Origin: Bacteroidia bacterium
GTDB taxonomy: Bacteria; Bacteroidota; Bacteroidia; J057
Direction of reading: 5' to 3'
Assembly (NCBI GenBank): GCA_030430575.1
Contig: JAUIKF010000016.1
Coordinates: 1 to 64,000 of the forward strand
DNA: 64,000 nt
The notes beneath the pieces are model-generated. The model was not told the origin of the DNA. It searched no databases and worked only from the letters and a program-made list of their open reading frames with translations. A program made the translations under genes and the position numbers. This document shows, piece after piece, positions 14,809 through 33,263 of this stretch (within the stretch, counting starts at the first letter, position 1; the number at the start of each line of letters is the position of its first letter).

Positions 14809-14885
14809 GTAGAGACGCGATTTATCGCATGTTGATTCCATATTATTGCATCAGGCTGTAGAGACGCGATAAATCGCGTCTCTAC
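14809..14885. repeat. GTAGAGACGCGAT palindromic repeats
   Basis: A perfect inverted repeat at 14858-14885 has 13-bp arms (gtagagacgcgat / atcgcgtctctac) around aa. A second, partly decayed copy starts at 14809 (gtagagacgcgatttatcgc). The same outer sequence, GTAGAGACG...CGTCTCTAC, reappears inside a coding region at 28,059. 14,915-14,934 has an AACCCAAA tract. Confidence 0.8.
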
Positions 14886-14985: not shown

Positions 14986-17900
14986 ATGAGATTCCCCCTT
15001 TTCCTCCTCCTAATGCTTTACTCCTATGGCCTATTTTCCCAAAATGGGCCGTTGATGCAACGCCTGGATCAGGCCAAGGAGCTGTATGCGCAGGAGGAAT
15101 ATAAAGCTTATGAGACCGAGATTCTCAGGTTATTGGCACATCCTGACGCAAAAAAAGAGAAAGGACTGTATTGGCTGTTGCTGATGGAGGCAGGATCCGT
15201 CACGATAGATTTTGCCAAATATGAGCAGGCGTATGACTATTATCATCAGGCGCTGCATTATGAGGAAGATGGGCAAGGCCCGCCCGATAGCTTATTGGCG
15301 ACGATTTACAATGATCTGGGCTATATCCGGGGGGAGCAGTCTCGTTTTGAGGAGCAGCTTGCTTTGTACGAAAAATCACTGGAATACCGCATCGCTTTGT
15401 ATGGGCCAACTCACTCGGAAACGGCGAGAAGCTATAATAACATTGGCTACTGCTACGGGAGGATGCGAAACTATGACCAGCAGCTCATTTATTTCCAAAA
15501 AGCCTTGGCGATCAGAATAGCGTTCTATGGCGAAGTGCATGCCCAGACGGCCAACTCTTTCAATAACCTGGGGTATTGCTATGGGCGTTTGGGGGACTAC
15601 GACAGCGAACTGGAATATTACCTCAAAGCGCTGAAAGTACGCAAGGCGATATTGGGCGAGCGGCATTCTTTGGTTGCTCGCACGTTGGGGAATATTGGCT
15701 ACCACTACTACAACACGCGTCAATATGACAAGGCCATCGCGCATTTTGAGGCAGGAATGGCCATCTACACGGAGATTTTTGGCCCGGATCATCCTGATGT
15801 GGTCAGTTCGTTGGAGAATATTGCCAATGCTTATGGGCGTCTCGGATATTTGGACAAATGCTTATTGTATTTGAATAAAGCCCAAGAAATTAACCTAAAA
15901 TTCTATGGAGCAAGGTCGGAGTCCGAAGTTCAAAACCTCAATAATCAAGCGGTATTTTCTTTGCGATTGGGGGAATATGAAAAAGCTGTAGGTCTCTTTG
16001 AAAAATCACTGGAGATCAGCCAGGAGATTTGGGGCAAGGACTCAAAGATGGCTATCGATCGAATGATCAAGGTAGGCATCGCGAACCTTGAACAAGGCGA
16101 TTATTCCAAAAGCTTGGAGATTTTCAACAAGGCATTTGAGATATATCATCCTACCGTCTCTCCGCCAAATTTTGAGTTGGCGGAAATTCATTTTCGAAGA
16201 GGCAGTTTGTATATCCATTTGGACTCCTTGGACAGGGCAATTGAAGATTTGCGCGAAGGGAGAAAACAATTTCTCCAACTCCACGATGAGGTAAGCAGTA
16301 GTTCTATCCATCAGGTCATAGGCGACTATTTTTACCATCAAGGAAAGTATGATTCGACCATCTATTATAATAATGTAGCCATTCAGTTTTTGGTGCCTGA
16401 TTTTACGTGGAAGGAGCCTCATGAAAATCCTTTGTCAGAGCAACTGATTTCAGAAGATCAATTGCTATATGCTGTGGAGGGAAAGGGAAGGGCATTTTAT
16501 CAAAAAGGAATCGACAATCGAGACGCGACTGCCTTGAAGCACGCCCTGGCCACCTTTGAACTGGCCATTGAAATCCTTGAAAAGAAACGATTTGAAAGGG
16601 GCGAAAAGACGATCCAACTGTTCAGTAGCGAAATCAGAGCCCTTTTTTCCCTGCTTATCAAGACCGCTAAGCACCTATATGACCTAACCCAGGATGATCA
16701 GTATCTCGAAGTCGTCTTTGAAGCCATGGACCAAAGCAGGGCTTATCTCCTGCGCGAACGCCTGCAAGCAGAGCAAGTAGCGCAATTTTCTGGTGTGCCA
16801 GATAGCTTATTGGGACAAGATCGAGTACTCAAGCAGGAACTGGTTTTTTATCAAAATAAAATCAAAGATGCTGAAGGAAATGCTTCTTATGACAGTGCGA
16901 AGGTGGCTCGTTGGAAGGATTATTTAGTAGAAAAACAACGAAAGCGCGACCAATTGCTCAGTATTTTATCCCGATCATTTCCCCGCTATTTTGCCCTGAA
17001 ACACGCCACACCCGACATTTCGCTACAACAGATACAAGGGGATTTATCGAAAAAAGGCGCAAACCTGATCACCTATTTCCATGCTGATAGCACGATATAT
17101 GCGATGGTGATTACCCCTAAAGGCAATCACTTACAGGCAATCCCCCTTCCTCCACATTTTGAGCACCTATCCCATCAATTTCTGAATGAACTGCGCCAGC
17201 CTGACCTTGTCAAGGCTCCGCAAGAGGCTTTTAGCCGATTTTGTCAGAGTTCTTATGCACTCTATGAACTATTGGTAGCGCCCCTTATCGACGATATCCC
17301 CCATAATGAACGCTTGATCATCATTCCCGATGGCAGCCTGGGCTATATCCCCTTTGAGTGCCTTATCCAAACCCTTCCAGCCGACCTCACCCAAGTCAAC
17401 TATGCTGCGCTGGACTTCTTGATCAAGCGATTGGAGATCGGCTATTCTTATCACAACCAATACCCCGATCAGCGGAATAAGGGCAAAAAGCTGAAGTATG
17501 TGGCGTTTGCGCCCTCTTTTGGGCCTGCCGTGGTAGGCGACTCCCTCCGACAAAACCTCCCCGTCCTGAGCTACGCTCAGGAAGAGACAGACGCCCTCGC
17601 CAAATCATTTGACGGGCAGCTCTATCAGGCTGAGCAAGCGTCAGAATCTTTATTCAAAAGCCTTGCGCCTGCCTTTTCGATGTTGCACTTGGCTACCCAT
17701 AGTTGGGTGTCAGATGGAGAAAGAGGTGCTCCATATTTGGTTTTCAGTAAGGATGTGGAGGGAAAAGAAGACGGCAAGCTTCATAGTTACGAATTGTACA
17801 ACCTGGATCTCTCTGCCGAAATCGCGGTGCTCAGCGCCTGCAATACAGGCGTTGGGAAGCTGCAAGCGGGGGAAGGCGTAATGAGCATGGCCCATGCCTT

Positions 17901-18213
17901 TGCCTATGCAGGCTGCCCCAGCATTTTGATGAGCCTCTGGCAGGTCAATGACCACGCCACGGCCCAGTTGATGGAGTCCTTTTATGTCGGCCTTGCCGAT
18001 AAAAAGCGAAAAAGCGAAGCGCTTCGTGAGGGGAAATTGGCCTTTCTGGCCGAGGCAGATCCGCTGAAGGCGCACCCCTATTATTGGGGCGGGATCGTCT
18101 CGATTGGGGACCAGCGTGCGCTGGGAGGGGGCGTGAATTGGCTTTTGTGGGGGATTATTGCGATCAGTATTTTGCTAGCTATAGGGTTGCTCGTGAAGCG
18201 AATGCTTCCTTGA
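14986..18213 (+). CDS. Secreted TPR-CHAT caspase-like protein with C-terminal anchor
   Basis: This 1,075-residue protein has a signal peptide (MRFPLFLLLMLYSYGLFSQ), then about ten TPR units over residues 30-480 (for example SETARSYNNIGYCYGRMRNY and QTANSFNNLGYCYGRLGDY). A helical linker follows, and then a CHAT domain from about 690 to 1,040. The caspase-like dyad is intact: H905 in LHLATHSW and C952 in LSACNTGVG. A hydrophobic helix (about 1,045-1,069) is followed by KRMLP, so the chain should be periplasmic and anchored by its C-terminus in the inner membrane. CHAT proteins are predicted or proven cysteine proteases. The gene converges on a membrane anti-sigma-like TPR gene 102 bp away, and an ECF sigma gene lies beyond. 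I infer that it senses through its TPRs and cleaves a membrane partner; the substrate is unproven. Confidence 0.9.
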   Translation: MRFPLFLLLMLYSYGLFSQNGPLMQRLDQAKELYAQEEYKAYETEILRLLAHPDAKKEKGLYWLLLMEAGSVTIDFAKYEQAYDYYHQALHYEEDGQGPPDSLLATIYNDLGYIRGEQSRFEEQLALYEKSLEYRIALYGPTHSETARSYNNIGYCYGRMRNYDQQLIYFQKALAIRIAFYGEVHAQTANSFNNLGYCYGRLGDYDSELEYYLKALKVRKAILGERHSLVARTLGNIGYHYYNTRQYDKAIAHFEAGMAIYTEIFGPDHPDVVSSLENIANAYGRLGYLDKCLLYLNKAQEINLKFYGARSESEVQNLNNQAVFSLRLGEYEKAVGLFEKSLEISQEIWGKDSKMAIDRMIKVGIANLEQGDYSKSLEIFNKAFEIYHPTVSPPNFELAEIHFRRGSLYIHLDSLDRAIEDLREGRKQFLQLHDEVSSSSIHQVIGDYFYHQGKYDSTIYYNNVAIQFLVPDFTWKEPHENPLSEQLISEDQLLYAVEGKGRAFYQKGIDNRDATALKHALATFELAIEILEKKRFERGEKTIQLFSSEIRALFSLLIKTAKHLYDLTQDDQYLEVVFEAMDQSRAYLLRERLQAEQVAQFSGVPDSLLGQDRVLKQELVFYQNKIKDAEGNASYDSAKVARWKDYLVEKQRKRDQLLSILSRSFPRYFALKHATPDISLQQIQGDLSKKGANLITYFHADSTIYAMVITPKGNHLQAIPLPPHFEHLSHQFLNELRQPDLVKAPQEAFSRFCQSSYALYELLVAPLIDDIPHNERLIIIPDGSLGYIPFECLIQTLPADLTQVNYAALDFLIKRLEIGYSYHNQYPDQRNKGKKLKYVAFAPSFGPAVVGDSLRQNLPVLSYAQEETDALAKSFDGQLYQAEQASESLFKSLAPAFSMLHLATHSWVSDGERGAPYLVFSKDVEGKEDGKLHSYELYNLDLSAEIAVLSACNTGVGKLQAGEGVMSMAHAFAYAGCPSILMSLWQVNDHATAQLMESFYVGLADKKRKSEALREGKLAFLAEADPLKAHPYYWGGIVSIGDQRALGGGVNWLLWGIIAISILLAIGLLVKRMLP

Positions 18214-18330
18214 AGAGAATGATGAATATTGAACAAGGGTTGATGATTTTTGAAGTGAATGAGCCTTCCTCCCTTCTCAAATCCCTTCGACTACGCTCAG
18301 GACATGCCTTGTTCATCAATCGATATTCTG
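18214..18330. repeat. GAATATTGAACAAGG hairpin between convergent genes
   Basis: gaatattgaacaagg (18,226 on) pairs with ccttgttcatcaatcgatattc (18,308-18,329), enclosing cttcgactacgctcaggaca. The right arm runs into the anti-sigma-like gene and encodes its last codons (QNID-stop). It belongs to the same family as the repeats at 769, 985 and 40,863. Confidence 0.7.
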
Positions 18331-19101
18331 CAATCTCTCCAACAACTGCTTCGCCTGCTCCCCATAAGCCGTCTTCGACGTCAAAAGCCCATTGAGCACG
18401 TCCTTCGCATTCGCTTGATCCCCATTCTTCAAATGGGCCATGGCCGTGTACCACAGCGAAATGTCCTGCAAGACAGGGTGCTTCAATTCATTGAGGCGAG
18501 TCAAATAATCAAGGGCTTTTGCAGGCTGGTTGGCAGCTATTCCACTGATGCCCGCATATAACAAAACAAATGGCTGCTCAGGGTCTGTGACCAATATTTT
18601 TTCAAAAGTGGCCAACGCTTGTGGGTAAATGGAAGCATTATAATAGCGCATGGCTTCTTTTAAGAGGGCATCTGTTTCCTCCCCAGATCGCGCCGTAATC
18701 ACATCTTCGTATGGACTGAAGTTCATGGCAAACAACTCTTCTGAGGAAGCCTGCCCGCCTAAATTTTGCCAGATAAACCATCCGCCTGTTATCAATAGTA
18801 TGGCGACGGCTGCATAACGCAGCAGTTGAGAAGTGTTGAAACGCCTGACGCTGGCGCTTTTTGCTTTCTCTATGTTGGCGTTGCCAGGGATGGCATGGCG
18901 GAAGGAAGCTGTGAGTGCTTCCAATTCAGCTGTATCTCTTGGCTGGGAATCCAGGCTTTCTTCAAGGGCTTCCATCGCCCCTGCCAGCAGGGGGTCTGTC
19001 AGCAGGGAAGCTTCCATCTCCTGAAGTTTGGCCGCAGGAAGTTCTCCCTGAAGGTAGGCCTTCATCTCTGCTAGGGAATATTGTACTTCATTATTTGCCA
19101 T
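18316..19101 (-). CDS. Membrane TPR protein with anti-sigma-like N-terminus
   Basis: This 261-residue single-pass protein has three parts. Residues 1-90 are cytoplasmic; the opening (YSLAEMKAYLQGELPAAKLQ, then EMEASLLTDPLLAGAMEALE) matches the helical start seen in Bacteroidota anti-sigma-like proteins (xIExYLxGxLxxxExxxLExxxxxDPFLAxAxEG). Residues 93-113 (LLRYAAVAILLITGGWFIWQ) form the membrane helix. Residues 130-261 are periplasmic with three to four TPR helices (YNASIYPQALATFEKIL, ANQPAKALDYLTRL, NGDQANAKDVLNGL). The sigma gene is upstream on the same strand across a 298-bp gap, and the CHAT gene converges from the other side. I infer that it holds the sigma factor at the membrane and is controlled by TPR contacts or cleavage. 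No zinc-binding HxxxCxxC is present. Confidence 0.75.
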   Translation of the reverse strand: MANNEVQYSLAEMKAYLQGELPAAKLQEMEASLLTDPLLAGAMEALEESLDSQPRDTAELEALTASFRHAIPGNANIEKAKSASVRRFNTSQLLRYAAVAILLITGGWFIWQNLGGQASSEELFAMNFSPYEDVITARSGEETDALLKEAMRYYNASIYPQALATFEKILVTDPEQPFVLLYAGISGIAANQPAKALDYLTRLNELKHPVLQDISLWYTAMAHLKNGDQANAKDVLNGLLTSKTAYGEQAKQLLERLQNID

Positions 19102-19399
19102 GATCTTAGGGAGTAATTTTGAATGAATGAAAACCTGGTTTTTATACTTTATTTATACTGAGAGAAATGTCGCGTTAATAAAACCATATAAGGCATATAA
19201 GAACATAGAAGGAAGAAATGATGAATTATGAAGGATTAAAGATGAAAAAGTATGGCTATTTTCTTAATTCCTAATTCATCCTTCCTCATTATATCTTATA
19301 TGCCCTTAAATGCCTTATATGGTTCAACAAATGCCTTTAGTCTAAACAGACAATCCATCAGGCCTAAAGAACAAAATTCTTCAAATGAGTTCATTTTTT
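19102..19399. repeat. ACCATATAAGGCATATAAG inverted repeat in sigma/anti-sigma gap
   Basis: The arms aaccatataaggcatataag (19,183 on) and cttatatgcccttaaatgcc (to about 19,316, continuing ttatatggtt) enclose a second inverted pair, gatgaattatgaaggatt / aattcctaattcatc. The same family occurs at 5,627, 45,594 and 50,384. The gap means the two genes need not share one transcript. Confidence 0.7.
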
Positions 19400-19972
19400 T
19401 CAGATCTTCTTTAACATGTCCCGAAGTCGCGTGGTCGCTCGATTTCGAATGCCCCTCAATTGGTTGAATGTCAGCCCCGTCTCCTCACATACTTCTTGGT
19501 AATTTTTTTCTTCTAAATAAATCTTTCGCAAGACTGTAGCCTCTTTCTCTGGCATTTTTGCTAAGGCATCATAGAGATGCGCTTGGTCCATTTGGGATTG
19601 AAGTTTTTCCTCAATCTCGTGTCCATCCTTTGTGTCCTGCTGTTCGACAAATTTGTCAAATAGCTGCTTCCGCCTCCCCTGGTCGTAACACATATTTCGC
19701 ATAAACACATACAGCCAGCTCTTAAAGGATTGCACTTCCGCCGTTTTGAGCTTCTCTGCGAGTTTAAGATATACCTCATTCGTGAAATCACGCACATCTT
19801 CATGGCCCCGAATCTGCTTCAACCCAAATGCAATGATCTGGTCTGCATAGCGGTCCATGAGGATCGAAATACAGGTGGCATCTCCTTTTTTCTGATAGCT
19901 GGCAATCAATTCGAGATCACTCATCTTGGAAGGAGGAGTTGCCTTGGAGAGGAAGCGGATTCTAATAGACAT
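19400..19972 (-). CDS. ECF-type RNA polymerase sigma-70 factor
   Basis: This protein has 190 residues (174 if ATG 19,924 is used, giving MSDLELIASYQKKGD, which looks like the usual ECF start). Region 2 covers about residues 30-95 (SILMDRYADQIIAFGLKQI, then DVRDFTNEVYLKLAEKL and SFKSWLYVFMRNMCYDQGRR, with the conserved W-L-Y-x-x-x-R-N core). Region 4 covers about 130-188 (LAKMPEKEATVLRKIYLEEK, then NYQEVCEETGLTFNQLRGIRNRATTRLRDML), with the HTH in E-E-T-G-L-T-F-N-Q-L-R. It lacks C-terminal extensions. It lies upstream of the anti-sigma-like gene on the same strand and is divergent from a T9SS cargo gene, which may be a target. Confidence 0.9.
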   Translation of the reverse strand: MSIRIRFLSKATPPSKMSDLELIASYQKKGDATCISILMDRYADQIIAFGLKQIRGHEDVRDFTNEVYLKLAEKLKTAEVQSFKSWLYVFMRNMCYDQGRRKQLFDKFVEQQDTKDGHEIEEKLQSQMDQAHLYDALAKMPEKEATVLRKIYLEEKNYQEVCEETGLTFNQLRGIRNRATTRLRDMLKKI

Positions 19973-20092
19973 GACGGTTTAGCCTTCAAGATTGCACGAA
20001 TTCAAAAAAAATAAAATTATCCGTGCACTTTTTTGGGGTCGGTCGTCTCATCGGATGAAACTCACTGTTACCATTTTTAAACTTACCCCAAG

Positions 20093-22033
20093 ATGAAAAC
20101 GCAATTGATTACCCCAATGAAGTATGCCCTACTGATGATCTTGACCTGTACGCTGGCAGCTCAGCTTGCCGCCCAGTGTAGCGTCTCAAGCCCCAAGGAA
20201 GTCGCTCCATTTTTTCCTCAATATGACTGGGAAGGCAAATGGAACCATGTTTCCCTTTCGGGAGACCAGGGAGAAGATTATTTCAGCTTTTATGCAGAAG
20301 TGGGGAATACCTATGTCTTCTCCACCATGCCAGCCTTTGGCGGCAGCACCACAGGCATTCCCAATGACGACACGCAGTTTTCGGTGCTTGATGTATATAA
20401 TCAGGCAGCACCAGGACGGTTTGGCAATGCCTTTCACGATGATTTTTATTACGGCCCTTTTTGGACTGACTACAAACCTACATTTGCCTGGTCACCTAGC
20501 CAGACGGGGACCTATCGCCTATTGGTCACAAAATATATGAACTATGTAGGCTGCCAGGAATTGGGAATGGGGGACCACGTGACGGTCGCTTTCAGGCGAA
20601 TTCCTAGGACCTATAACTTTGCCGTGTGGACAGGCGCACAACATGCAGATTTTTATGCTGATTATTGTTGGCTCAGTAGGGGGACTAGCGGCGCGCCTGG
20701 ATCAGGACTCAATACAGCATTGGATCAGGCATATGCCTTGTTCGATAGTGACGCGGGTGCTTCTGTAGGGGCTATCACTACTCACCGTCCGCCTTCCAGT
20801 CACATGTCTATTACTGTGTGTAAGATGGTCATAGGCCCGCGCCAAACCCTCGAAATATATTCTCAGACAGAATTAGTGATTACGAGTGAACTCATCATGC
20901 CGATGACTTGGGAGCCTTTTGCGTTCCTTCCATCCGTAGGGAGAATCGAGAGTTCGAGTGCTGCTTCACCGGGAACCGTCCGACTGCTAGGCGCTAATGC
21001 GAATATGAACATTCCCAATAATGGCAATATTCAAAACATTAGGTTGGTCCTAGAAAGTGGACAGAACACCTCTATTAGCGGGATTGGGTCGCCTTTTGAA
21101 GGGGAATCGGTCTTTGCAGAAATTGAAATTAAGGGGAATGCAGATTTCTATATCGGCGGGAAAGTTCGGGTAAAAAACAAGATTTATTTTCACAGCGATC
21201 AGGTGATCGGGGTGGGAAGTACAGATCCATATTCTTATCTCAAATTGGATGAAGCTACCCAAGTCATAGGTGCCAATGAAAAACGCTTTATTTCGGTGGG
21301 GGCAGGCCGCCCAGTCATCAAGGCCTGGAGCAGTACGCAGCCATTTGAACTACCGATAGGAGATTGTATCCATCCTTCAAAATACTATGCACCTGTCAAC
21401 ATAACCCCCACAAGTGCCACAGCCACTGAGTGGTCCTGCACTTATCAACGCAATAATCCCTATTATCACGCTGGGCCTCAGCACGGAGGGATTGATCACA
21501 TCAGTCGCTATGATCGGTGGACAGTGGATTCTGATGTCGCCAATGCCCAGGCAACAATCACTGTGCAGTGGAACCCTGGTAGCCAAGTCGGTCAGCAACT
21601 CAATGACCTAACCATTGCAGGATATGATCTGAATTATGCCTGGCAGAATGTAGGGGGAAATAGCGTGACAGGCACCTCCCAAGTCGGCCAAATCACCTCC
21701 AATACCATTGTCCCCAATCAGTACTCGGAATTCTCCATTGCCTCCACCACCGCCAATCATGGCTTTCGCCTCGGCCAGCAGCCAATAGCTGATATTTCCT
21801 TTACCTGCTTCCCAAACCCAGCCACCAGCTACACCCAAATCGAACTGGAGCATCCCCTGCCAACAGCCATGTCTTTCCGTATGATCGACACCCAAGGACG
21901 AGAAGTCCACCAAGTAGAAATGCTTGCAGGTCAAAAGAGTGCCTCACTGAACATCAGTCATCTCAGCGCGGGGACCTACTACGTGGTCGCCGATCAACAA
22001 CGAGCGAAGCCGTTTAAGGTGGTGAAGAAGTGA
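20093..22033 (+). CDS. Secreted protein with T9SS type A sorting domain
   Basis: This 646-residue protein has a signal peptide (CTLAAQLAAQ; start ATG 20,093 or 20,117). The central body was not assigned to a known family. It contains acidic, aromatic-rich segments early on (GDQGEDYFSFYAEVGNTYVF, resembling PPC-type domains) and beta-solenoid-like strands in the middle (GNADFYIGGKVRVKNKIYF). Residues 570-646 form a type A C-terminal sorting domain: FTCFPNPATSYTQIELE at the start, HLSAGTYYVVADQQ, and a basic end FKVVKK. It is therefore exported by the type IX system and probably cell-surface attached or released. Divergent from the ECF sigma gene across 120 bp, it is a candidate target of that sigma. 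Confidence 0.85.
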   Translation: MKTQLITPMKYALLMILTCTLAAQLAAQCSVSSPKEVAPFFPQYDWEGKWNHVSLSGDQGEDYFSFYAEVGNTYVFSTMPAFGGSTTGIPNDDTQFSVLDVYNQAAPGRFGNAFHDDFYYGPFWTDYKPTFAWSPSQTGTYRLLVTKYMNYVGCQELGMGDHVTVAFRRIPRTYNFAVWTGAQHADFYADYCWLSRGTSGAPGSGLNTALDQAYALFDSDAGASVGAITTHRPPSSHMSITVCKMVIGPRQTLEIYSQTELVITSELIMPMTWEPFAFLPSVGRIESSSAASPGTVRLLGANANMNIPNNGNIQNIRLVLESGQNTSISGIGSPFEGESVFAEIEIKGNADFYIGGKVRVKNKIYFHSDQVIGVGSTDPYSYLKLDEATQVIGANEKRFISVGAGRPVIKAWSSTQPFELPIGDCIHPSKYYAPVNITPTSATATEWSCTYQRNNPYYHAGPQHGGIDHISRYDRWTVDSDVANAQATITVQWNPGSQVGQQLNDLTIAGYDLNYAWQNVGGNSVTGTSQVGQITSNTIVPNQYSEFSIASTTANHGFRLGQQPIADISFTCFPNPATSYTQIELEHPLPTAMSFRMIDTQGREVHQVEMLAGQKSASLNISHLSAGTYYVVADQQRAKPFKVVKK

Positions 22034-22335: not shown

Positions 22336-24417
22336 ATGGCAGGCATTACCTTTCCCCGACTTGCTGCTTTTTTGACCCTTTTTCTCTTCACCTATCATGT
22401 TGGATACCCACAAGATGAAATAGACAGCCTCATCACTGCCTTCGACCAGCAAGCAGATGAAGCCCTAAAGGCTGCAACTGCTCTTGCCATCGGCCGCGAA
22501 CTCATGCGAACGGATAGCGCAGGCGCAGTCAAATACTTCAGGGCTTGTGTGGAGATAGCCGCTAATGAAAATGGCCTAGAAGCGCTCTGGCGGGAATGCA
22601 ATAGCCTATGGGGGCGATTTTATGTGCTCAAAGGCGAATTTTCTACTGGGGAGACATTTTTTAGAAAAAACTTGGAACTCGCAAGAAGCGGTCGATTTCC
22701 CGACCGTGTTTCAGCGGATGCCTTTACAGATATGGGGGCACTGTCTGTTTATCAGCAGGCATTTGATTCGGCTATTGTTTTTCTGAATAAAGGGATTGAT
22801 TTGCTTGAAAAATCGAATGCTAAACCCAATGAATTCCTGTCTCCTATTAACAACCTGTTTCTCATATACCACGACCAAAGCAAAGTAGAAAAAGCACTGG
22901 AAACAGCCCTCAAAGGGTTGGAATGGGCTGAGACGGCAGAAGACGCACGATTTGCGGCCATATTTACCCTCAATACGGGCATGAGCTATAGCATGCAGCG
23001 CCAGCGAAATGAGGCCATCCATTCCTATAAACAAGCGATCTCCTTGGCAAGAGAGGCGAATTTGCCTCAGGTAGAAGGAACAGCCTTGTCGAATCTTTCA
23101 GGGGAATATGAAAATCTAGGGCTATGGGACTCCGTCAAGGTGTGTGCCTTGGAAGCGATTCCATTGCTGGAAGCGCATGGAGACATTCGTCTACAGACGG
23201 GCAATTATGTGCAGTTGGCGCAAGTAGCGCGTCAAGCAGGCAATACCGCTTTGGTCAAGGAATACCTGGCGATTATCCAAGAACTGTTAACCAAAATGCC
23301 TTCTATTCAAGCAGAGACAGCTTATTGGCAGATGATAGGAGAATTGCACCAGCAAGAAGGCAAGTGGCAAGCAGCAGAAGCGGCGTTCCGAAAAGGGATA
23401 GAGTTAACGGATAAAATTGAGAACTTGGAGCGGAAGGCAAATTTGACGGAGGCGCTGATGCGGCTGTTTGTAGCGAAGCATCAGGAAGATTCTGCCAATG
23501 TGTACTTTGATCGATATGCAGCCTTGAAGGATCGCATCATCTCAAAAGACAAGGCAGAAGCATTGGCACGAATGGAGACGGAATTTGAAATAGCCAAAAA
23601 AGAATCTCAAATCGCCAAGCAGGAATTAGAAATCGCGCAAGTCCATGCCGATAGCCTCCAGCGGACTTATGAGCGCAATCGGTTGTTAGTAGGGGTAATC
23701 ATTCTGTTTTTGATTGCCGTGGGCGTGGGATATAGTTTTTGGCGAAGCAAAAAGTTTAACACATTGCTTTCCGCCAAAAATCACGAATTGACAGAAGCCA
23801 ATGAACAAAAGGAGGCTTTACTCAAGGAAATACATCATCGCGTCAAGAACAACCTCCAGACCATCTCGAGCTTACTCAAACTGCAAGCCCGTTCTACCGA
23901 TGATCCTATTGCCTTGACGCCCCTATTGGAAGGCCAAAATCGCGTGGAGTCTATGGCCCTCGTCCACCAAAAGCTCTACCAGACAGAAGACCTGCGTGAG
24001 GTGCATTTTCAGGAATATTTGGAACAATTGATGGACGCACTCTCAGAATCGTATGATGGGAAATCGCAGCAGGTTGAGACGGTCGTAAATGCTCATGACA
24101 TTTCCATGGACATTGACAATGCTATCCCACTGGGCCTGATTGTCAATGAATTGGTCACCAATGCCTACAAATACGCCTTTCAAGGCAAGGAAAAGGGGAG
24201 CATTAGGATTTCCCTCCATAAAGAAAAGGAGGCGGGCTACCGACTAGCCGTATCAGATGACGGATTGGGCTTGCCAGCGGGCTTTTCGATGGAAAGCCCA
24301 CATTCCTTGGGCATGCGGCTGGTGAAGATGTTCACCAGACAACTGAGGGGAAACCTGAATTGGCATTCGGATAGTGGTGCGCATTTTTCCATCCAATTTC
24401 AAGGAATTCAGTCATGA
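22336..24417 (+). CDS. TPR sensor histidine kinase (HisKA_2 type)
   Basis: This 693-residue kinase has a signal peptide-like start (AAFLTLFLFTYHVGYPQ) and a periplasmic TPR array over about residues 30-400. A coiled coil of repeated Glu/Lys/Gln (EIAKKESQIAKQELEIAQ) leads to a single membrane helix (LLVGVIILFLIAVGVGYSFW, about 454-473). The cytoplasmic part has a HisKA_2 phosphorylation site, EIHHRVKNNLQ with H500, and an ATPase domain with N-box IPLGLIVNELVTNAYKYAF and G-boxes SDDGLGLP and SLGMRLVKMFTRQL. It overlaps the response regulator gene by 4 bp (ATGA), so the two are translationally coupled. The architecture is common in Bacteroidota; the signal is unknown. Confidence 0.9.
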   Translation: MAGITFPRLAAFLTLFLFTYHVGYPQDEIDSLITAFDQQADEALKAATALAIGRELMRTDSAGAVKYFRACVEIAANENGLEALWRECNSLWGRFYVLKGEFSTGETFFRKNLELARSGRFPDRVSADAFTDMGALSVYQQAFDSAIVFLNKGIDLLEKSNAKPNEFLSPINNLFLIYHDQSKVEKALETALKGLEWAETAEDARFAAIFTLNTGMSYSMQRQRNEAIHSYKQAISLAREANLPQVEGTALSNLSGEYENLGLWDSVKVCALEAIPLLEAHGDIRLQTGNYVQLAQVARQAGNTALVKEYLAIIQELLTKMPSIQAETAYWQMIGELHQQEGKWQAAEAAFRKGIELTDKIENLERKANLTEALMRLFVAKHQEDSANVYFDRYAALKDRIISKDKAEALARMETEFEIAKKESQIAKQELEIAQVHADSLQRTYERNRLLVGVIILFLIAVGVGYSFWRSKKFNTLLSAKNHELTEANEQKEALLKEIHHRVKNNLQTISSLLKLQARSTDDPIALTPLLEGQNRVESMALVHQKLYQTEDLREVHFQEYLEQLMDALSESYDGKSQQVETVVNAHDISMDIDNAIPLGLIVNELVTNAYKYAFQGKEKGSIRISLHKEKEAGYRLAVSDDGLGLPAGFSMESPHSLGMRLVKMFTRQLRGNLNWHSDSGAHFSIQFQGIQS

Positions 24418-25130
24418 GTAGTTTTTCAGTCTTGATTGTCGAAGATCAACTGGTCATTGCGGAAGACATCCGCCAAGCGGTGGAAGGCATGGGGCATCAA
24501 GTCTGCGGGATAGCGATTTCCTACGAAGAAGGGGTAGGTTTGGTCCAGCGTCACCAGCCTGATTTAGTAATTTTAGATATAAAATTACAGGGGAAAAAAA
24601 GCGGGATAGACCTGGCGTATGTTATCCTAAAAAAATACCCGACCACTTCCTTTATTTACCTAACCTCCTATTTTGACAGAAAAACCTTAAAAGGTGCCAG
24701 CAAAACCCTGCCAGGTGCTTACCTGGTGAAGCCCTTCAAAGACCAAGACTTGATGTCGGCGATTGAGGTAAGTATGCAAAATCATCAGGCTAAGATCGAG
24801 ATGACAGATCAGCTCGAAGGGCCGGGAGAACTGATCGTCAAATCGGAGTATGTCTTGCTGAAAATCCCCTTTGTAGACATCCTATGGCTCAAGGCGGATC
24901 GCAATTATTTTGAGATAAAAACCCTTGAGAAAATCCATCGAGTCAGGGGAAGCATGGAAGCGTATGAGAAAAAACTCCCTCCTAACCGCTTTATGCGCAT
25001 CCATCGCTCCTATATCATCAACCTCGACCATGTCACCGAGGCTTTCAATGGAAAAGTGCTGATGGGTGGGGTATCGCTGCCTGTTTCGAGGAGGCGGTTT
25101 TCAGAGCTGATGGCTAGAATCAAGGCTTGA
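24414..25130 (+). CDS. LytTR-family response regulator
   Basis: This 238-residue protein has a receiver domain (residues 4-120) with acidic pocket E10-D11, phospho-acceptor D55 in LVILDIKL, T84 in YLTSY and K106 in LVKPF. A LytTR DNA-binding domain occupies about 135-236 (VDILWLKADRNYFEIKTLEK, then FMRIHRSYIINLDHV). LytTR regulators bind direct repeats upstream of target genes, often cell-surface or extracellular genes. Partner and coupling come from the ATGA overlap with the kinase gene. The secreted-protein genes just downstream are possible targets, but I did not find a convincing repeat operator. Confidence 0.92.
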   Translation: MSSFSVLIVEDQLVIAEDIRQAVEGMGHQVCGIAISYEEGVGLVQRHQPDLVILDIKLQGKKSGIDLAYVILKKYPTTSFIYLTSYFDRKTLKGASKTLPGAYLVKPFKDQDLMSAIEVSMQNHQAKIEMTDQLEGPGELIVKSEYVLLKIPFVDILWLKADRNYFEIKTLEKIHRVRGSMEAYEKKLPPNRFMRIHRSYIINLDHVTEAFNGKVLMGGVSLPVSRRRFSELMARIKA

Positions 25131-28185: not shown

Positions 28186-28275
28186 TTTTACGTTTTAGGT
28201 TCTGAGTTTTAGGTTGAACACAGACTTAGAACCTAAAACCCAAAACCCAAAACCCAAAACCCAAAACCCAAAACC
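28186..28275. repeat. AACCCAA tandem tract, copy 1, with inverted partner
   Basis: gttttaggttctgagttttaggtt (split over 28,189-28,213) is followed by aacctaaaacccaaaaccc with about six 7-bp AACCCAA units. It resembles the tract downstream of the next gene (33,184-33,257). Minor copies lie near 11,470, 14,915, 22,215 and 48,246. Confidence 0.75.
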
Positions 28276-28314
28276 TTCTTCCCCCCTCCACGACATCTCT
28301 ACGACAACTGAGAC

Positions 28315-33096: not shown

Positions 33097-33257
33097 GGCA
33101 AGTTTGGGGTTCAGGGTTTAGAGTTTTGGGTTCAGGGATCAGAGTTCTAGCTTATATGACTTTGGGATTTTTAGTCTAACTTAGAACCCAAAACCCAAAA
33201 CCCAAAACCCAAAACCCAAAACCCAAAACCCAAAACCCAAAACCCAAAACCCAAAAC
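33097..33257. repeat. AACCCAA tandem tract, copy 2
   Basis: 33,184-33,257 is about ten uninterrupted AACCCAA heptamers, preceded by partly inverted gggttcagggtttagagttttggg (33,109 on). Together with 28,226-28,275 it brackets the lectin/SprB gene. It ends 6 nt before the next start codon. Confidence 0.85.
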
Positions 33258-33263
33258 CTCCTT

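Follow-up and report, generated by a model that had tools for sequence, protein, structure and literature searches.

A TPR-CHAT protease paired with a transmembrane anti-sigma-like protein: a candidate proteolytic switch for an ECF sigma factor in Bacteroidota

We analysed a stretch of 64,000 nucleotides from the genome of a Bacteroidia bacterium (Bacteroidota, GTDB lineage J057; assembly GCA_030430575.1, contig JAUIKF010000016.1, positions 1 to 64,000; hereafter the window), in which the gene of a TPR-CHAT protease lies beside those of an anti-sigma-like membrane protein and an extracytoplasmic function (ECF) sigma factor. On balance we favour the view that these genes encode a regulated-proteolysis switch, in which the protease would cut the anti-sigma protein at a linker carrying R138 and so free the sigma factor. 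A first-pass annotation had read the three genes as a CRISPR-free proteolytic signalling set, and this proposal is now supported by the recurrent linkage of the genes, by the predicted topology of their products and by covariation between the protease pocket and the anti-sigma linker. Because pocket residues 867 and 950 of the CHAT protein covary with the linker, the protease probably engages the anti-sigma protein at R138 and likely cuts after this residue. Release of the sigma factor is what we infer from the arrangement of the sigma/anti-sigma pair.

The rationale of the switch is as follows. The cytoplasmic N-terminus of the anti-sigma protein would hold the ECF sigma factor at the inner membrane, and on the periplasmic side the protein would consist of a short helix, a flexible linker containing the conserved basic residue R138, and a TPR domain. 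The TPR-CHAT protein would be exported and anchored by its C-terminal helix, and a signal, probably sensed by its TPRs, would trigger the protease. R138 would then enter an acidic S1 pocket formed by E867 and S950, and the R138|S139 bond, some 25 residues beyond the membrane, would be cut. Removal of the remaining stub by general proteases would free the sigma factor, which would turn on neighbouring genes, often those of exported proteins or proteins of the type IX secretion system (T9SS). Paralogues within one genome would use differing pockets and linker residues (Arg/Lys or Leu/Met).

Gene calls and domain profile matches yield a four-gene set in the window that agrees with the first-pass description. 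The TPR-CHAT gene (14986-18213, + strand, 1075 amino acids) lies tail to tail with the anti-sigma/sigma pair (18316-19972, − strand), and the gene of a T9SS cargo protein (20093-22033, + strand) begins 120 bp beyond the sigma gene and is divergent from it. The protease carries an N-terminal hydrophobic export signal (residues 1-18, 14986-15039; a helix at 3-18 in the model), a TPR superhelix that rests on several TPR profile matches and the model (residues ~22-469, 15049-16392), a complete CHAT domain (PF12770, residues 757-1042, 17254-18111, E 3.8e-54) and a predicted C-terminal membrane helix (residues 1052-1073, 18139-18204). Catalytic H905 (17698-17700) and C952 (17839-17841) are intact, as in 29/29 CHAT genes of this genome that were examined. 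The protease described from the letters alone is borne out, with an intact dyad and with export and membrane anchoring as predictions. The two residues that the covariation singles out as putative S1 residues are E867 (17584-17586), at the start of a helix that spans 864-874 in the model, and S950 (17833-17835), two residues before the catalytic Cys.

An AlphaFold2 model of this protein (mean predicted local distance difference test score, pLDDT, 85) found Csx29 as its top VIA-align structure (7y9x_B, Z 28.4, 541 residues, root-mean-square deviation (rmsd) 5.5); the comparison with separase 5fby_A gave Z 26.0 over 319 residues (rmsd 3.3), and that with DdvA 8rw5 gave Z 22.7 over 569 residues (rmsd 7.0), spanning residues 197-1041. 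By sequence, the CHAT domain alone had no match at E<=1 among solved structures, and a profile of 40 CHAT domains matched DdvA and TPR-CHAT chains. Among 60 linked full-length CHAT proteins, hydropathy alone predicts an export signal in 50, a C-terminal helix in 52 and both in 43, and the same method finds both in 9 of 171 other long proteins of the same loci, taken as a control.

The anti-sigma-like protein (18316-19101, − strand, 261 amino acids; assigned by profiles, alignment and model) begins with a cytoplasmic part (residues 1-80, 18862-19101) bearing the family motif IExYLxGxLxxxExxxFE. This part matches the NCBIfam anti-sigma model at 22.7 bits, below the cut-off of 100, and NF052375 (antisigma) is matched at E<=0.001 by 13/33 homologues. 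Its AlphaFold2 model (mean pLDDT 85) places a membrane helix at residues 90-113 (18763-18834), a short confident helix at 120-127 and TPR helices at 142-258 (18328-18678, also found by profiles); the coil between them (128-141), which includes the R138 codon (18688-18690, the putative P1 residue, aligned across the family), is modelled at lower confidence, with a mean pLDDT of 66 for block 131-140. Nearly all of the 50 matches listed by Foldseek for this model are of TPR type, and none reaches E<=0.001. By hydropathy alone, 64/65 homologues have a single predicted membrane helix, and the single-pass protein with periplasmic TPRs seen at first pass is thus recovered as one predicted helix with TPRs after it. 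The sigma gene of that description (19400-19972, − strand, 190 amino acids) matches TIGR02937 (sigma70-ECF) at 79.6 bits, above the cut-off of 42.9, and PF04542 is matched at E<=0.001 by 12/19 sigma homologues of the same genome. We infer from these predictions that the CHAT and anti-sigma proteins would face each other in the periplasm, which fits the earlier suggestion that they meet there.

The set recurs within its own genome (8.16 Mb in 127 contigs; 39 CHAT and 68 sigma matches, weak ones of both families counted). Within 8 kb of a sigma match we found 19/39 CHAT matches, against 5.3 expected (binomial p=1.3e-7), and within 5 kb 14/39, against 3.5 expected (p=4e-6). The proximity of CHAT and sigma genes beyond chance is confirmed. 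The repeated unit consists of an ECF sigma factor, an anti-sigma-like TPR protein of ~250 amino acids with one helix, and an exported TPR-CHAT protein with a C-terminal helix. There are 23 sigma genes of the window subfamily; one lies at a contig edge, and 19 of the 22 others precede, on the same strand, a protein of 205-282 amino acids that aligns over its full length with the anti-sigma-like protein of the window. A profile built from these 19 sequences has 26 strong matches in the genome (>140 bits), and 20/26 have a CHAT match within 10 kb, a count biased by the seeding of the profile from CHAT loci and including two cases, on contig C69, where only a weak CHAT match is present. Tandem CHAT frames occur at L075 (245-13096), with four frames in succession, at L060 (9668-21072), where a sigma/anti-sigma pair lies among three frames, and at L024 (6352-13316), where both frames are 1055 amino acids long. 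Another set of three genes, for a weak CHAT match of ~500 amino acids, a protein of 306/320 amino acids and one of 1756/1938 amino acids with predicted hydrophobic segments, occurs twice in one genome in similar form (L038, 2436-10325, and L041, 1743-10369), and no sigma gene of the window family is among the genes shown there.

Conserved linkage, proposed at first pass as the check on the idea, was found in this genome, in relatives of the same family and in named Bacteroidota. Fourteen relatives were searched. In the nine from the same family, several of them very fragmented assemblies, 33/66 anti-sigma proteins (>=75 bits) have a CHAT gene within 10 kb, for a chance value of 0.003-0.078 per anti-sigma. 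In the relative assembled in 5 contigs (G005) the count is 7/7, and three others with one anti-sigma each (G003, G006 and G009) have no linked case within 10 kb. The five relatives from other families of the order gave no anti-sigma match at >=75 bits. Across named Bacteroidota, a search with linked and unlinked CHAT proteins, aligned together, gave at least 579 confirmed matches, of which we took the best 80. A sigma gene of the window type is present in 35 of these 80 loci, against the 9.1 that the overall density of sigma matches in the window genome would give, and both sigma and anti-sigma genes are present in 32. No more than 300 bp separates the pair from the CHAT reading frame in 23 of these 32 loci; the 32 are arranged tail to tail, as in the window (15), divergently (10) or on one strand (7). 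Adjacency is kept while gene order varies, and this argues for a functional tie. According to record titles the linked loci come from Saprospiraceae, Aquimarina, Kordia, Winogradskyella, Agaribacillus, Splendidivirga, Fulvivirga, Flavilitoribacter and Bacteroidales. In a sample of 158 genomes of the phylum, 72 have a CHAT match at E<=1e-20; leaving the window genome aside, CHAT is found in 13/14 genomes with a strong anti-sigma match vs 58/143 without one (p=3e-4, with the CHAT and anti-sigma draws taken as identical). The exception, G093, has a strong anti-sigma match (L190) and no CHAT match, and in the linker of this protein, FLSKTGN, the usual R with G or S after it is absent.

Evidence that the two proteins touch comes from the linker between the membrane helix and the TPRs. 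Of 104 linked anti-sigma proteins, 78 have R and 7 have K at position 138 of this linker, and some paralogues of the window genome have Leu or Met there; the residue that follows is in most cases small or polar (Gly, Ser, Asp, Asn, Ala or Thr). Truncated calls or other architectures (L110_4 and L112_4) were dropped before these counts, as were false anti-sigma matches of the fresh set described below (the second matches of L156, L160 and L170, and L158). We scanned 289 CHAT columns against 144 anti-sigma columns over 101 protein pairs, without any S1 literature as input. Among the 41,616 column pairs, E867 × R138 ranks 1 and S950 × R138 ranks 10, and no other CHAT column pairs better with R138. 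Split into halves, the data place them at 1 and 18 of 40,612 in the first (60 pairs); in the second (41 pairs) E867 × R138 ranks 16 of 38,324 and is still the best CHAT partner of R138. An acid stands at 867 in 78/83 pairs with a basic linker vs 4/18 without one. Read the other way, and leaving out L119_5 and L153, whose column 867 is unreadable, the linker is basic in 78/82 pairs that have an acid at 867 and in 3/17 that have another residue there (tree-aware likelihood ratio (LR) 24.2, p=7e-5). With an acid at 867 or 950 it is basic in 80/84, and with neither in 1/15 (LR 31.4, p=2.5e-6), a rule that is partly post hoc, having been changed to this form after the all-pairs scan and the D950 cases. 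Two Lys-linker pairs without E867 carry D950, as if the acid had moved; they are sisters on the tree and hence count as one event.

For residue 950, the rule that S950 predicts a basic linker was fixed before fresh loci were gathered. In these fresh pairs the linker is basic in 34/35 with S950 vs 2/6 without (p=7e-4), one of the S cases (L195) being scored basic on a doubtful alignment. Both basic non-S cases have D950, and a third non-S case, L159 (N950), has a Lys beside the scored column. On the CHAT tree of the 101 pairs, 0/4000 simulated traits reach the observed association between 950 and the linker, whether S is taken alone or S, N and D are grouped, and for the latter grouping, which is post hoc, the dependent model is preferred (LR 18.65, p=9e-4). 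At locus L146 (7034-18292) a single T9SS/CHAT operon lies between two sigma/anti-sigma pairs; the divergent pair has a Leu linker fitting the CHAT pocket, and the other is hard to align.

Both positions appear to fall in known S1-pocket regions of caspase-like proteases, as read from the model. In TbMCA2, Asp211 also lies two residues before the catalytic Cys. The S1 specificity of clan CD is assigned to helix 1/loop 1, loop 4 and loop 5, with caspase-7 Gln184 (catalytic Cys186) and TbMCA2 Asp211 as loop 4 residues (PMC4357240). In MARTX-CPD, whose cut falls after Leu, helix 1 carries Ala47, and Val138 stands two positions ahead of Cys140 (PMC4357240). Following strand 1, the first part of helix 1 holds Arg64 in caspase-3 and Asp163 in gingipain, and an acid takes the same place in separases, enzymes that cleave after Arg (PMC4626109). 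The window CHAT shares this feature of Arg-specific clan CD peptidases, E867 opening helix 864-874 of its model. Contact between the CHAT protein and the anti-sigma linker at S1 is well supported by the covariation.

The genes that accompany the unit were scored in the same loci. We compared 47 genes lying on the CHAT strand between the sigma/anti-sigma pair and CHAT with 687 genes outside. A crude export signal is found in 41/47 vs 293/687 and a T9SS tail (custom profile) in 15/47 vs 29/687; the Pfam sorting domain PF18962, counted for in-between genes only, is present in 19/47. The unit often includes an exported payload, and payload families differ. A gene divergent from sigma is present in 17/31 tail-to-tail or same-strand modules, and of these 17 genes, 9 carry an export signal, while a T9SS tail is seen in 3, that of the window included. 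The T9SS cargo of the window (646 amino acids; PF18962, and TIGR04183, a C-terminal sorting domain) is a candidate output, and the 120 bp between it and sigma (19973-20092) a candidate output promoter. A lone T9SS neighbour is weak evidence, since the genome holds at least 150 T9SS sorting tails, and the cargo gene was not retained as a distinctive output on its position alone. It is the enrichment between sigma and CHAT that counts, and that supports the first-pass view of T9SS cargo as part of the unit.

Several observations weigh against cleavage at R138 as the basis of the switch. Unlinked anti-sigma proteins also mostly have a basic linker (16 R + 2 K of 24 with no CHAT in the fetched stretch, some of them with a weak CHAT match nearby; 5 R + 2 K of 8 in a second set), and the idea that the basic residue is specific to linked anti-sigma proteins was rejected on this ground; in the unlinked ones it may serve a distant CHAT or another role. 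The CHAT tree is a quick one, with 38/98 inner branches weak. It offers only 2-3 well-supported independent pairs for S950 (0.9 the same way, 0 opposite) and four for the acid rule (3.6 the same way on average, 0 opposite; sign test p=0.125). The D950 clause of that rule is post hoc, and S950 × R138 falls to rank 572 of 38,324 in the second half of the data, as the fifth CHAT partner of R138. There are exceptions in both directions: an acid without a basic linker in L009 (partner ambiguous), L022, L100 and L159, and a basic linker without an acid in L033. A further 40 loci gave 31/32 CHAT rows with a basic linker and 32/32 with E867 and S950, hence no variation from which to learn, and at least two of them look like repeats of named loci (L231 like L100, L229 like L097). 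Mirror-tree (Mantel) correlations between CHAT and its partners are weak, with r from 0.06 to 0.28 among own paralogues and from 0.21 to 0.30 over all 48 units; the method is blunt, since sigma against the cytoplasmic part of anti-sigma reaches only r 0.14 in own paralogues. Upstream of the sigma genes the search for a shared promoter motif returned only A/T-rich dyads and is unconvincing. Craspase cut sites are described as non-conserved and tolerant of substitution (PMC11106740), and the Sb TPR-CHAT, which cuts L|D, seems on our reading of the alignment to keep an acid at the 867 position, with Gly at Cys-2.

These points bear on three other explanations. The pocket and linker types could mark co-duplicated subfamilies without functional contact, as would suit the concentration of non-basic pairs mainly within two CHAT clades, the weak mirror-tree signal and the pair-based sign tests, which are underpowered. 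We regard this as very improbable, given that no simulation on the tree matched the association at 950, that the likelihood tests gave p=9e-4 and 7e-5 to 2.5e-6, and that the top-ranked of 41,616 column pairs connects the linker residue to a known S1 position; L026, L161 and L167 also change on both sides outside the two clades, their tree placement being weak. The main rival accepts the contact: because covariation cannot tell a substrate from a plug, the linker residue might block the S1 pocket of CHAT as a pseudo-substrate, the anti-sigma protein being an inhibitor or docking site and the real substrate another protein. The RgpB prodomain inhibits in this way, by placing an Arg in S1 (PMC4357240), what covaries indicates S1 contact and not cutting, and in the model the linker forms a short coil flanked by two parts of high confidence. 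We nonetheless consider such a brake unlikely: by itself it leaves unexplained why the partner is an anti-sigma protein encoded with its sigma factor, and small or polar residues predominate just after 138, as in a scissile bond.

It has also to be asked whether CHAT instead cuts the exported or T9SS payload, another site-1 protease controls the anti-sigma protein, and CHAT is merely a target of sigma. Exported genes do often precede CHAT on its strand (the 41/47 and 19/47 given above). Yet the CHAT pocket covaries with the anti-sigma linker, and in tail-to-tail loci an opposite-strand sigma pair separates CHAT from the payload candidate and makes a common transcript unlikely. We judge this explanation to be rather improbable, and regulated cleavage of the anti-sigma protein remains the reading that we prefer.

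Several known systems resemble the proposed switch. Csx30, the substrate in type III-E CRISPR systems, is not known to have a membrane helix. In these systems (Craspase: Csx29/TPR-CHAT, Csx30 and CASP-sigma), as in the window, a protease with a TPR-CHAT fold and a His/Cys dyad is encoded near an ECF sigma factor, and the protease substrate inhibits an ECF-like sigma, as we propose for the window anti-sigma (PMC10028731). In contrast, the window protease is predicted to be exported and membrane-anchored, and its partner is a 261-residue single-pass TPR anti-sigma-like protein, set apart from Csx30 by topology, similarity to Csx30 not having been searched. The linker residue of the window family is usually basic; the sites cut by Craspases, in contrast, are A|S, L|D or M|K (PMC11106740). 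PADLOC gave no Cas7-11 match among all 28 called genes of the window; beyond generic TPR models its weak matches were CARF4 (E 0.0017) and BrxB to sigma and SduA to a response regulator. The 64-kb window holds no CRISPR-like array. Without a Cas7-11 match or such an array, and with a membrane partner, the window unit is not a Craspase.

In RseA-type control, a site-1 cut outside the membrane is followed by further proteolysis, and the site-1 protease is a general PDZ serine protease. Unlike RseA-DegS, the window pair would use a clan CD CHAT protease that is encoded with, and apparently paired to, its anti-sigma protein. The window family does share the co-encoding of sigma with a single-pass anti-sigma (19/22 sigma genes; one helix in 64/65), and the proposed switch is like RseA-DegS-RseP-type proteolysis in having an inner-membrane anti-sigma protein with a periplasmic part (partly PMC10028731). 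DdvA of Myxococcus xanthus (PDB 8rot, 8rw5) is described as a transmembrane anti-sigma, its chain being named CHAT domain-containing protein, and like the window anti-sigma it pairs with an ECF sigma, DdvS (PMC4374960). It is one polypeptide of 991 residues, where the window has two separate genes, and its Cys-2 position is Ala in the alignment. ECF54 has CHAT, subtilase and carboxypeptidase genes near sigma, and proteolytic control has been proposed for it; it is described as lacking an anti-sigma, whereas the unit counted here includes one by definition (PMC8999054). PorXY-SigP joins an ECF sigma and a T9SS C-terminal domain protein in one circuit, as in the window set, with a two-component input, unlike the window, and with no CHAT in the portion of the source covered (PMC7712824). 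We found no account of a separate paired CHAT/anti-sigma module in the open-licence literature (subscription papers and preprints lay outside this scope). By analogy, the module would work like Craspase and like regulated anti-sigma proteolysis, and its separate paired form appears new.

Other features of the window were recorded alongside. At 22336-25130, beyond the T9SS cargo gene, lie the genes of a histidine kinase with TPRs (HisKA_2) and of a LytTR response regulator. Upstream of the CHAT gene (14811-14885) there is a short inverted repeat, gtagagacgcgataaatcgcgtctctac, plus a partial copy, and an AACCCAA-like repeat occurs in short arrays at 28223-28289 and 33178-33258.

To our knowledge, most CHAT genes of Bacteroidota have no known job. 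With the switch proposed here, many CHAT proteins would have a candidate substrate, with a prediction both of the bond to be cut and of the residues that set specificity; they would also be connected with control by ECF sigma factors and with exported proteins, often those of T9SS. The logic of Craspase, in which a CHAT protease frees a sigma factor, would be set in a wider, CRISPR-free and membrane-crossing context, and the paralogues may provide naturally occurring protease/anti-sigma pairs, possibly orthogonal, each open to testing by itself. It is possible, if not quite probable, that Bacteroidota carry a large undescribed family of insulated envelope signalling lines, in which each TPR-CHAT would act as the site-1 protease reserved for one transmembrane anti-sigma protein through a private S1-pocket/linker-P1 specificity, with up to about twenty paralogous lines per cell, each driving its own exported or T9SS payload.

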